Below, in pieces: positions 1 through 33,430 of a DNA stretch of 33,430 nucleotides. The stretch lies in the IMG/VR virus record IMGVR_UViG_3300035703_000285, positions 1 through 33,430 of that record; one strand, 5' to 3'. Made by a program: the position numbers and the translations under genes. The notes beneath the pieces are model-generated. The model had not been told where the DNA came from, made no database searches, and was given only the letters and a program-made list of their open reading frames with translations. Positions within the stretch are counted from its first letter, which is position 1. Each line of letters opens with the position of its first letter. Origin of the DNA: a virus.

Positions 1-11
1 TTTATTGGTAG

Positions 12-46
12 AAAAAAACGCCCCGACTGGTCGTAGCAGTCGGGGC
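12..46 (-). terminator. Rho-independent terminator or attenuator in the primase leader
   Basis: Read on the minus strand, a perfect 9-bp stem (GCCCCGACT / AGTCGGGGC, arms at 46-38 and 28-20) encloses a 9-nt loop (37-29) and is followed by G and seven T (18-12). It ends the operon whose last gene stops at 124. Because the circle closes here, it also sits in the 5' leader of the primase gene. The loop is exactly complementary to bases 91-83 upstream, so a competing fold is possible. A second copy is at 33315-33349. Confidence 0.9.
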
Positions 47-110
47 AGGCCAAGGTAGCGGCTTTGCTTACGTCTACCTGCGGCTACGACCTCGCTGGCA
101 AACTCTAATA

Positions 111-118
111 CAAATATA
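111..118 (-). promoter_or_regulatory. Candidate Bacteroidota promoter -7 box for the primase operon
   Basis: The minus strand reads TATATTTG, an exact match to the Bacteroidota -7 consensus TAnnTTTG. It lies just after the stop of the gene at 124-345 and upstream of the leader hairpin and primase gene. No clear TTTG -33 box is visible 19-21 bp upstream, so this is moderate evidence only. The second copy is at 33414-33421. Confidence 0.45.
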
Positions 119-123
119 CAACA

Positions 124-345
124 TTAAGTCATATTTTGACCTCGCCGGTCGTGTTCGTCTGCGACATTTCGCATCGCGTCAATGATGTTGTTGTCCATGT
201 ACGTTGCGGCAATCGCAAGGTCGTAAAACAACTGCACCAGTTCAGTGGCAGTGAGATCACTGTTGTCACTTTCAATGCTGATGCGCTTGCCGTCGATTTG
301 CAGGCTTAGCTTTAAGCCGAGGTCAGAATGGGAGGTCGCTGCCAT
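124..345 (-). CDS. Hypothetical protein, 73 aa, last gene of the ERF/SSB-like operon
   Basis: I do not recognise a family. The start at 345 (MAATSHSD) was chosen because the preceding bases (AAACCAGAACCCA-ATG) match the A/C-rich leader seen before many genes here. A longer reading to 435 would run far into the upstream gene. The protein is soluble and probably helical in its C-terminal half (residues about 30-70). It overlaps the SSB-like gene by 23 nt, implying coupled translation. The terminator at 12-46 follows the stop. Confidence 0.7.
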   Translation of the reverse strand: MAATSHSDLGLKLSLQIDGKRISIESDNSDLTATELVQLFYDLAIAATYMDNNIIDAMRNVADEHDRRGQNMT

Positions 346-580
346 TGGGTTCTGGTTTAGTGGTGAATGACTGCGCTGGTGCTGGACGCTCTGCGGTCTG
401 CTGCTTGACCTGCACGTTGCCGGCCAAGAACTCACCCTTTGCGCCTTGCTTGCGCCACAGTGCGACTTGATATTCTACACCGTTCAGGAGTAGGTTGCCC
501 TTCCATGACGGTGCGTTGGCATTGTCGGATTGGTTGGTGAAGACGCTGATGTCGCCGTCTTTTTTTTGGTAATTTGACAT
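323..580 (-). CDS. Small SSB-like / DUF736-like protein, 85 aa
   Basis: The N-terminal 55 residues follow a pattern of short beta-type proteins (GDISVFTNQ, then WKGNLLLNGVEYQVALWRK) that resembles DUF736-like and compact OB-type proteins. The last residues, GSDLPF, resemble the acidic tip by which single-stranded DNA-binding proteins recruit partners. A role coating single-stranded DNA beside the ERF annealing protein of the same operon is inferred from this tail and the context. It starts 14 nt after the previous stop, with the leader ACCAAAACCAAACT before ATG. Codons 5-7 contain an A-run that is not obviously slippery. The DNA-binding call is tentative. Confidence 0.6.
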   Translation of the reverse strand: MSNYQKKDGDISVFTNQSDNANAPSWKGNLLLNGVEYQVALWRKQGAKGEFLAGNVQVKQQTAERPAPAQSFTTKPEPNGSDLPF

Positions 581-30904: not shown

Positions 30905-31106
30905 TTTGTAGTAGGTTTTTTGCAAGATAAGTTACTACAAAAAAACGGCCTTTGCAATATCGTGAAGGGCGTTTTTTGCATTTGTAGTAAGTGTAGTAAG
31001 ACTTTTTTAATAAAAAGAGTGTATATTATATGATGACGATATGAATAATATTTACGCGCATATAGGGTTTCAAAAGTGCGTTTGTAGTAACTACATCTTA
31101 CTACAA
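30905..31106. repeat. Cluster of six TTGTAGTAA iterons, candidate origin or operator
   Basis: 9-mers TTGTAGTAA (or its complement TTACTACAA) occur at 30906-30914 (last base differs), 30932-30940 (reverse), 30982-30990, 30991-30999 (first base differs), 31082-31090 and 31098-31106 (reverse). The last two form an inverted pair seven bases apart, the reverse one covering the primase stop. The stretch 31001-31070 is very A/T-rich. Iterons plus an A/T-rich segment between primase and helicase genes fit a replication origin. The 9-mer is not the DnaA box consensus TTATCCACA. Confidence 0.65.
30940..30977. terminator. Hairpin with A- and T-runs, candidate bidirectional terminator
   Basis: Arms AAAAAACGGCCTT (30940-30952) and AAGGGCGTTTTTT (30965-30977) pair with a single mismatch, loop of 12. 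On either strand the GC core is followed by six T. On the minus strand it would end the primase transcript before the helicase GTG at 30894. It is flanked by inverted iterons, making an imperfect palindrome of about 59 bp. Confidence 0.6.
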
Positions 31107-33290
31107 AATCGGGGGAATGTACGTTTCCAAGTCGCTTGGGCATATTTGCCATTTTTTAATAGGACACTTACCTGCCTCCTCCCTGCGACTTTGCTGAATG
31201 TAGCCGAGTGCTTTCAGCTGCTGGCCAAGCTTATGGAGGCTCAACGACTGCCGTGAGTTCATGTCGATGTAGACTTTTATCTCGCTTGTGGTCATCCACT
31301 TTTGCACGTTTGTACTTGGTGGCTTGAAATACTTGACGATCAACTCTCGCTCCAAACTTGGCTGTTCATTGTCCATCGTGTTGTTGTTTAGATACGCCGT
31401 GTCTTGCGTATCCAAATACCATGCCTTCGGGTTTGCCTTCCACTCGTTGTAAAGCTCAACCCACAGGTCTATTTTGTCGATGGCTTCGTAGCTATCCCAG
31501 TCAATGCTAACCACGTCAATCGGCACGATACGTCTATTGCCGGTCGGATCGTTTATTATTTCGGCCTCGTTTGACGTGCCGCACAAGACTGCTATTCGTC
31601 GCAATTCTTCATGCACTTTGCCGTATGGCTTGCGGATTGTAAACGTCTGGCGGCTGGAAAGTTCTTTCAGCTTCTTCGCCTCCTGTTTGCTCTTTCCGCC
31701 AAATTCGTCATCGCACAGTATTATCTTCTTGCACATTAAAATCTCATCATCCTTTCCGGCATCGAGTTTTGATTCACCGTAATACGAGCGCAGTTCTTCG
31801 GGTAGCAGGTATCGGAAGAAATTGGTCTTGCCGATGCCTTGCGCTCCTGTCAGCACAAGGCAGATGACGGAGTAGTCGTAGTGCATGGATGCGACTACGC
31901 CATGTAGCCATTTTTTAAGAAAATTAGCGACGTAGAACGGATCATGACCTTTTGCGTGTATACAGTCCACCAACTGGATAAAGTTGCCTCTTGGTTGACG
32001 TGAGGCGTGTTTAGCGAAGAACTCCATGAATGGGTTGTAGCGCGATGTATTTTCACTATCGATAATGTCAAAGACCAGTTGCTTTTTCACCTTTGATCCG
32101 TAGGCGTGAACGGCTTGCAGGTATATTGTGTTCAGCTCTCGGTCGGTCACTGGATCTCCTGCTTTCTCGTAGTTGCGTGTTATTTCATTCATGCGAATGT
32201 TGATGCCTCCGATAAATGCTTTCAGCGCGTCGAGCATCTCATCGGCGCTTGGCTTTTCGATGTCTTTTTCTTCCAATGCGAAAGCCTGCGTCACGCGTTC
32301 TTCTACGTCTTCAAGGCCGTCTACTTCGGTCAGGTAGCTTATGGTTTCCTTTCGTGCGTCGTCTGTAGACCTGAAGCCACCAGCGACGCCAACGCGTGCG
32401 CGGTTAATGAGCGACATGCGTTCAATGCGCTTTGTCTGCTCGGTCTGCGTTTCTACGCCAGCGGCGCGCGCCATGTAAACGAGTGTCGCGAATGTTATCT
32501 CGCGTCGCGACGAGCGTTGCAACTCGGCGTATTTAGCGTCGCACTTCTGCGCGTTGTACTTGGCGCTCATCTGCGACAGTGTATGAAAGTGATCCAGTCC
32601 TTTTGGATCGTCTTTGTACTTGCTTATCAAGGCGCAGCCGACGCGATACCAGTCTTGATAGCCTTCGCATAGGTTTATGTTGCGACTTACGATTTGGGCG
32701 ATCATGTAGTCGCTATCTGATTCGTTGCCGACGTACTGCGCACGCACTGGCGCTGATGGCTTAGGTAGATAATCTTTGAAGCGTGCCGGCTTTTTCTCTG
32801 CGATGTATAGGTCAGGATCGTAGCTTACGTAGCGCAGGCGTGTCACGTCTTTACAGGCGCGGTCTACTATCAACTCATACCTGTCGGCGATGCGCTTTTC
32901 AAGGCCGAGGTATGCGTCGAGGTGTCTGTTTGGATCAATCGGGAAGATGGCGCAGTAGCCTTTTCCTCCAGCGCTTCGGAACATAGCGTATAGCAATGGA
33001 TCGTGTCGCAGCTTTGCCGCGCCTTCTTCGATGTTTGGGTTGTCCTGTTCATCAATATCCATGCATATAAAACCGCTATGCTGTATCAGCTGATCGGACT
33101 TGCGCGCTTTGAACTCTCCGCTTGTTGTGAATGCGGGTAATTTGTCTTTGGTTGTCTTGCCGGTTCGATATGCGAGGATGTGATCTTGCCAGCGGCCGTC
33201 TTTAATGTTGGCCAGCACGGTGTTTAGGTCGCCTGAATTTATCGGGGTTGTATTGCGGTGGCTATCAAAAATTGATACTTTAATGGACAT
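31101..33290 (-). CDS. Primase-helicase with BT4734-like N-terminus and VirE-type ATPase, 729 aa
   Basis: The start at 33290 (MSIKVSIFDSHRNTTPINSG) avoids reading through the leader hairpin, unlike the ATG at 33356. Residues about 30-200 resemble the BT4734/BF3469 N-terminal primase-like domain (HSGFICMDIDEQDNPN, RSAGGKGYCAIFPIDP). A PriCT-like segment follows (YQDWYRVGCALISKY). The VirE ATPase has Walker A GAQGIGKT (about 482-489), Walker B KIILCDDEF and GTSNEAEIINDPTGNRR as sensor. It probably primes and unwinds DNA for phage replication and is the first gene after the leader. Confidence 0.9.
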   Translation of the reverse strand: MSIKVSIFDSHRNTTPINSGDLNTVLANIKDGRWQDHILAYRTGKTTKDKLPAFTTSGEFKARKSDQLIQHSGFICMDIDEQDNPNIEEGAAKLRHDPLLYAMFRSAGGKGYCAIFPIDPNRHLDAYLGLEKRIADRYELIVDRACKDVTRLRYVSYDPDLYIAEKKPARFKDYLPKPSAPVRAQYVGNESDSDYMIAQIVSRNINLCEGYQDWYRVGCALISKYKDDPKGLDHFHTLSQMSAKYNAQKCDAKYAELQRSSRREITFATLVYMARAAGVETQTEQTKRIERMSLINRARVGVAGGFRSTDDARKETISYLTEVDGLEDVEERVTQAFALEEKDIEKPSADEMLDALKAFIGGINIRMNEITRNYEKAGDPVTDRELNTIYLQAVHAYGSKVKKQLVFDIIDSENTSRYNPFMEFFAKHASRQPRGNFIQLVDCIHAKGHDPFYVANFLKKWLHGVVASMHYDYSVICLVLTGAQGIGKTNFFRYLLPEELRSYYGESKLDAGKDDEILMCKKIILCDDEFGGKSKQEAKKLKELSSRQTFTIRKPYGKVHEELRRIAVLCGTSNEAEIINDPTGNRRIVPIDVVSIDWDSYEAIDKIDLWVELYNEWKANPKAWYLDTQDTAYLNNNTMDNEQPSLERELIVKYFKPPSTNVQKWMTTSEIKVYIDMNSRQSLSLHKLGQQLKALGYIQQSRREEAGKCPIKKWQICPSDLETYIPPIL

Positions 33291-33303: not shown

Positions 33304-33430
33304 TTTATTGGTAGAAAAAAACGCCCCGACTGGTCGTAGCAGTCGGGGCAGGCCAAGGTAGCGGCTTTGCTTACGTCTACCTGCGGCTACGACCTCGCTG
33401 GCAAACTCTAATACAAATATACAACATTAA
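33304..33430. repeat. Terminal direct repeat, copy 2, with the primase leader
   Basis: This is identical to bases 1-127. Within it, in minus-strand order, are the -7 box (33421-33414), the upstream complement of the hairpin loop (33394-33386) and the terminator hairpin with its T-run (33349-33315). The primase ATG follows at 33290. Confidence 0.95.

Follow-up and report, generated by a model that had tools for sequence, protein, structure and literature searches.

The analysed window, a stretch of 33,430 nucleotides of viral DNA, begins and ends with the same sequence. Bases 1-127 are identical to bases 33304-33430, an exact terminal overlap of 127 bp, indicating that the window represents one circular (or circularly permuted) complete phage genome of 33,303 bp with a single leader locus. 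A sequence-only reading of this DNA had reported that the hairpin described below also ends the previous operon; this second copy proved to be an artefact of the circular-assembly overlap. End overlaps were also seen in related contigs (127 bp in G001 and G003, 119 bp in G007 and 99 bp in G013). Every window gene with a match in the family searches is encoded on the minus strand, among them a primase/helicase, a DEAD-type helicase, an endonuclease/VRR-NUC-like protein, terminase subunits, the portal, tail and lysis proteins, an Erf-like annealing protein and an SSB-like protein. Pfam and PHROGs searches turned up no integrase or repressor in the window, and no tRNA genes were found in it. The promoter type and the protein relatives point to a Bacteroidota host. 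A replication origin at the leader was considered and rejected, since the GC skew showed no sharp switch.

Read along the minus strand, the locus holds a -7 promoter box, a hairpin H1 with loop L1, a second hairpin H2, a perfect intrinsic terminator with loop L2 and the primase ATG, in this order. The features are as follows.

1-127, minus strand: terminal overlap of the contig, the leader locus again and no second hairpin, from its identity to 33304-33430.
124-435, minus strand: 103-aa gene on the far side of the circle junction, upstream of the leader, without family match.
33414-33421, minus strand: -7 promoter box TATATTTG of the Bacteroidota type TAnnTTTG, from the sequence.
33383-33398, minus strand: H1, the 5′ hairpin bearing loop L1, from the sequence and comparison with relatives.
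33386-33394, minus strand: L1, GGTCGTAGC, an exact 9-nt complement of the terminator loop with two-sided covariation.
33352-33365, minus strand: H2, the small middle hairpin GCC...GGC, from alignments A2 and A3 and pair counts.
33323-33349, minus strand: intrinsic terminator hairpin with a 10-bp stem, a perfect inverted repeat whose stem is 100% paired in relatives.
33333-33339, minus strand: L2, the terminator loop CTACGAC and partner of L1, from complementarity and covariation.
33315-33321, minus strand: T7 tract of the terminator, from the sequence.
31101-33290, minus strand: primase/helicase gene downstream of the leader, 729 aa, with BT4734-like_N, PriCT_2 and VapE-like domains (Pfam).

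The promoter box comes straight after the stop codon of the 103-aa gene, and the transcript would be expected to start about 7 nt downstream of the box, near 33408. No good -33 promoter element was seen, with weak candidates at most. Leaders of families A and B keep TATATTTG, where its presence was preset because the box belonged to the search pattern. For family C, 80 of the 82 leaders among the matches listed carry TAAATTTG, TAACTTTG or TATCTTTG as the -7 box. An inverted repeat, GTGTAAAT...ATTTAC, overlaps the box in family C leaders such as L113 and L114 and is possibly an operator.

The terminator reads GCCCCGACTG-CTACGAC-CAGTCGGGGC, occupies 33315-33349 (minus strand) together with its T7 tract, and is followed about 25 bases later by the primase ATG at 33290. 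L2 together with its closing pair is GCTACGACC (33332-33340), which is exactly complementary over 9 nt to GGTCGTAGC (33386-33394). Both the perfect terminator between the -7 box and the primase ATG and the exact pairing of its loop with an upstream segment had been proposed in the sequence-only reading, and both were found as described. L1 lies within the H1 hairpin loop in most alleles; family C and several A/B alleles have a strong H1, whereas the window has a weak one, its stem being 3 bp long versus 8 bp or more in close relatives, and in the GTCGAAG allele H1 is unclear. The 3′ arm of H1 at 33380-33385 reads CGCAGG in the window versus CGCTTG in relatives, a change that weakens H1 and at the same time creates an AGGTAG/CTACCT pair. 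This second inverted pair, also noticed earlier, is present in the window but is not conserved, as relatives carry CTTGTAGACG or CTTGTGAACG. In family C the place of the GCC...GGC hairpin H2 is taken by GGGTT...AACCC. One family C leader (L216, 2837-2975) carries about 30 extra nucleotides within its middle hairpin, and both its loops remain complementary.

The pairing of the two loops was then compared across 133 non-redundant leaders from related viral contigs, some of which are short. These leaders were chosen through the promoter and middle-hairpin motifs, not through the loops, and one motif match (L552) was excluded because it is not this leader RNA. L1 and L2 were complementary throughout in 129 of the 133 leaders among the matches listed, while only 2.2% paired fully when loops were swapped in from other alleles. 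The four imperfect kisses comprise one G-U pair in L575, one mismatch each in L539 and L077 (the latter on the same contig as L244) and two mismatches in L403, which is apparently a recombinant. At least 17 loop pairs with full complementarity were found, with loops of 6-8 nt. Upstream of primase relatives the co-changing L1/L2 pairs include GTCGTAG/CTACGAC, GTCGAAG/CTTCGAC, TTCGCAG/CTGCGAA, GTAGGAG/CTCCTAC, ATACCAG/CTGGTAT, GTGGTG/CACCAC, ATAGCAG/CTGCTAT, ATTCCAG/CTGGAAT, ATTGCAG/CTGCAAT, TTGCGG/CCGCAA and TTCCGG/CCGGAA, among others. In the kissing helix, pair counts on two alignments (22 and 32 distinct sequences) found 98.7% and 100% of the cells paired; single positions showed as many as four pair types, and the changes were exclusively two-sided, with zero G-U intermediates. 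When the partner was slid as a control, this pairing collapsed. Covariation of the loop with its complement in related phages, the check that the sequence-only reading had suggested, was therefore strongly positive.

The complementarity also exceeded what chance would give. In 16 related contigs, 113 terminator-like sites were found, of which 18 had a loop complement just upstream, and 16 of these 18 were this leader. A scan of all collected loci gave 125 loop-complement matches, 109 of them of this leader type, against 46 in two null scans summed. The pool of loci was drawn partly from a loop-specific search, so the window's own allele may be over-represented in it.

In the alleles seen, the complement of L2 covers the loop of 6-8 nt and reaches no further than its closing pair, without any extension into the stem, and the terminator stem does not covary with L1. 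A complement limited in this way indicates a loop-loop kiss that is compatible with the terminator, and no classical anti-terminator. Loop-loop kissing complexes typically show loops of this size that are fully paired, so both hairpins would be able to coexist with the kiss, and from the extent of pairing both stems probably stay formed. Of the two possibilities raised earlier, a pseudoknot or an anti-terminator, the covariation supports a pseudoknot-like loop-loop pairing of L1 with L2. A classical attenuator, in which L1 would serve as an anti-terminator and break the terminator stem, could appeal to a terminator in the leader with a complementary segment upstream; with the complement stopping at the loop-closing pair, we regard it as highly improbable. 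The spacing between L1 and the terminator was 32-42 nt in all leaders measured among the matches listed, and, by reading, 31-37 nt in L041/L045, L108/L111 and L352/L370, which are unrelated sequences built on the same three-hairpin plan. Covariation alone gives the same signal for pairing within and between molecules; the conserved spacing favours pairing within a molecule and is still compatible with pairing between molecules.

The genes behind the leader differ in kind. Among the matches listed, about 67 leaders are followed by a VirE-type primase (59, and a further 8 whose frame had been miscalled), 48 by a cluster of other small proteins, six by a protein that is ParB-like by eye and has no Pfam match, and another six by a DUF3223 protein. 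A DnaB-type helicase lies further downstream in the four small-protein-cluster cases that were read (L358, L400, L403 and L411), and one first gene of such clusters matches DUF6291. The leader would be independent of the kind of replication protein behind it. The promoter motif TAnnTTTG was found in none of the 130 spacers between terminator and start codon among the matches listed, indicating that, barring an unusual hidden promoter, transcripts of the downstream genes must pass the terminator. The leader is called attenuator-type for this reason, and a control role before replication genes is plausible.

Loop alleles turn over rapidly and are exchanged between phages. On a tree of 63 primases, the 12 loop alleles need 30 changes, with a minimum of 11. 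Three pairs of loci encode identical primase proteins and carry different loop alleles, and in L081/L082 the 600-nt coding starts and the terminator stems are identical while H1 and L2 differ. The same loop alleles recur on primases about 53-76% identical to that of the window. Between families A and C the primases are about 49% identical and the terminator stem is nearly unchanged, though the loop inside it differs. The contigs compared are genome-wide mosaics of roughly 72-95% nucleotide identity. Such loop changes could reflect diversifying selection for loop identity, or recombination together with compensated drift. In several samples, different alleles of one family were found in the same metagenome, at a frequency that a rough count did not place above random drawing.

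The RNA does not accompany every primase of this type. L109 and L112 have the same primase type and lack the leader RNA, indicating that the RNA is not essential to the primase gene. L107 and L110, primase relatives that likewise lack the RNA, carry a different large hairpin, CCCCATTCGG...CCGGATGGGG, in its place. No such leader was found in the primase-containing stretches scanned of the cultured relatives Nonlabens P12024L/S, Cellulophaga phi46:1 and phi3:1, and Flavobacterium mumin6-4 and FPSV-S1. In bacterial genomes, a detector scan found the leader at none of 11 primase relatives, and a covariance-model search gave no matches with model R1; the single match of model R2 has a similar terminator, lacks the loop complement and was rejected. 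None of the matches from model searches of 295 genomes belonging to one class was genuine. Of the kissing terminators beyond this leader, only L041/L045 and L352/L370 look genuine in the locus scan and pattern search, among the matches listed. L041 (9359-9512, minus strand) and L045 have the hairpin-hairpin-terminator kissing plan with the window's loop allele and different stems. The RNA in L041 comes right after a tRNA-like sequence, which scores 60 bits against the Rfam tRNA model, is not called by ARAGORN and has an imperfect acceptor stem, and it precedes a ParB-like-looking gene. L352 (7385-7480, minus strand) and L370, from an unrelated phage, carry a kissing-loop terminator with the pair GTGCGGC/GCCGCAC between two genes, before a glycosyltransferase-like gene.

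We consider it probable, if far from certain, that the locus encodes a leader RNA of about 95 nt, built of H1, H2 and the terminator, which belongs to the phage replication module, forms an L1:L2 kiss and exerts attenuator-type control. The RNA would be made from its own promoter box and would end at the intrinsic terminator, just ahead of the first replication-type start codon. As the covariation shows, the H1 loop and the terminator loop pair over 6-9 bp, probably with both stems still formed. The first replication-type gene would then be expressed only upon read-through by RNA polymerase, and an attenuator of this kind would keep expression of the replication genes low or timed. The kiss would most likely be intramolecular and would affect the firmness or speed of the arrest at termination, or the stability of the short RNA. 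More speculatively, the rapid two-sided turnover of the loops raises the possibility that kiss identity also matters between molecules, with short RNAs of sibling copies being told from those of other phages. The weak -33 element, the 3-bp H1 in the window, the unclear H1 of the GTCGAAG allele, the 4 imperfect kisses in 133 and the relatives without the RNA count against this leader-attenuator explanation.

Two other readings of the kiss are possible, though both appear unlikely. In the one, the RNA acts in trans and is self-specific: the short RNA of one genome copy would pair, L2 with L1 or L1 with L2, with another nascent leader and would hold down the expression of replication genes in same-allele genomes, whether sister copies or superinfecting ones, like P4 CI RNA or ColE1 RNA I. 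Hypervariable loops within a conserved terminator stem, the exchange of alleles between loci with identical primases, their sharing across divergent ones and the presence of different alleles in one metagenome are all in line with this. However, the lack of a recognised integrase or repressor in the window would leave no lysogenic state to protect, the conserved spacing favours pairing in cis, several alleles are only one base apart, and alleles co-occur no more than by chance in the rough count. In the other, the kiss does no more than stabilise the 3′ end or shape a fold for protein binding, making the RNA compact and resistant to nucleases or the terminator tight, and the loops drift neutrally with compensation and recombine. 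The neighbouring alleles CTGCAAT, CTGGAAT and CTGCTAT, one compensated pair apart, and the two unrelated instances before other genes (L041/L045 and L352/L370) suggest such a fold. It fits less well with the terminator stem, which stays the same in sequence beside primases of about 50% identity even as its loop changes, and with a leader tied to the starts of replication-type modules.

An independent small RNA whose loops target other mRNAs of the phage or the host would explain why the RNA has its own promoter box and terminator. We think this very unlikely, given that 7-mers of the own allele were not enriched elsewhere in 13 phage genomes and that the loops diversify rather than stay conserved. 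An extended form of the reading in trans would make the RNA a hypervariable identity tag with interchangeable kissing-loop alleles, in which the short terminated RNA would single out nascent leaders carrying its own allele and bring about RNA-based incompatibility or dosage control between co-infecting tailed phages in which no lysogeny genes were seen. This proposal is doubtful and is offered as a conjecture. If the loops do confer specificity between molecules, the natural set of alleles would make it directly testable.

The leader was also compared with known RNA families and systems, of which P4 immunity, ColE1-type loop-loop control and phi29 pRNA are its closest parallels in function. 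In Rfam 15 the whole window had no gathering-level match, the best scores of the window leader, L114 and L352 stayed below every gathering threshold, and in L041 only the adjoining tRNA-like stretch passed. Matches to NsiR1, Spot 42 and similar families were sub-threshold and were rejected. A literature search of partial coverage found no description of such a leader. A loop-loop kiss also occurs in ColE1 RNA I/RNA II, where fully complementary loops of about 7 nt with diversifying loop identity control replication. The leader resembles that system in its fully paired loops of 6-8 nt and at least 17 loop types. Whereas the ColE1 RNAs are transcribed from opposite strands, here both loops lie on the same strand in one RNA, and there is no convergent pair of transcripts. 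Attenuators and terminator-type riboswitches share with the leader an intrinsic terminator just before the gene in a 5′ leader; unlike them, it lacks a conserved ligand-type core and any anti-terminator helix that would exclude the terminator, and its loops are the most variable part.

Among phage RNAs, phi29 pRNA likewise carries, within one molecule, two loops that are complementary to each other (PMC7357161). The pRNA loops pair over 4 bp between molecules in the packaging motor, in contrast to 6-9 bp with a terminator loop as partner in a replication leader here; the whole-window Rfam scan gave no match at all, and the context of the locus is replication, not packaging. In P4 immunity the short CI RNA, from the replication-operon leader where seqA and seqC also lie, stops transcription of the replication genes by pairing with sites of that leader. 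It arises by processing of a longer transcript and functions during lysogeny (PMC4825925). The present RNA likewise would be a short untranslated RNA in a phage replication leader, and it stands directly before the primase or another gene of replication type. It too is complementary to a stretch of its own leader (L2 to L1), and a tie to premature termination is predicted here as well. Unlike the P4 RNA, it would end at an intrinsic terminator whose own loop is one of the partners, and lysogeny genes were not found. By the tests run, the RNA belongs to none of the systems compared, namely P4, ColE1, phi29 pRNA and the anti-terminator attenuator. It appears to be a structured RNA family, new to the literature searched and shared by a large group of uncultured phages, that shows remarkably clear two-sided covariation and sits at the entrance of their replication genes. 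Should the loops confer specificity between molecules, RNA-based incompatibility, known from plasmids and from P4, a satellite phage, would also exist in phages that show no lysogeny genes.
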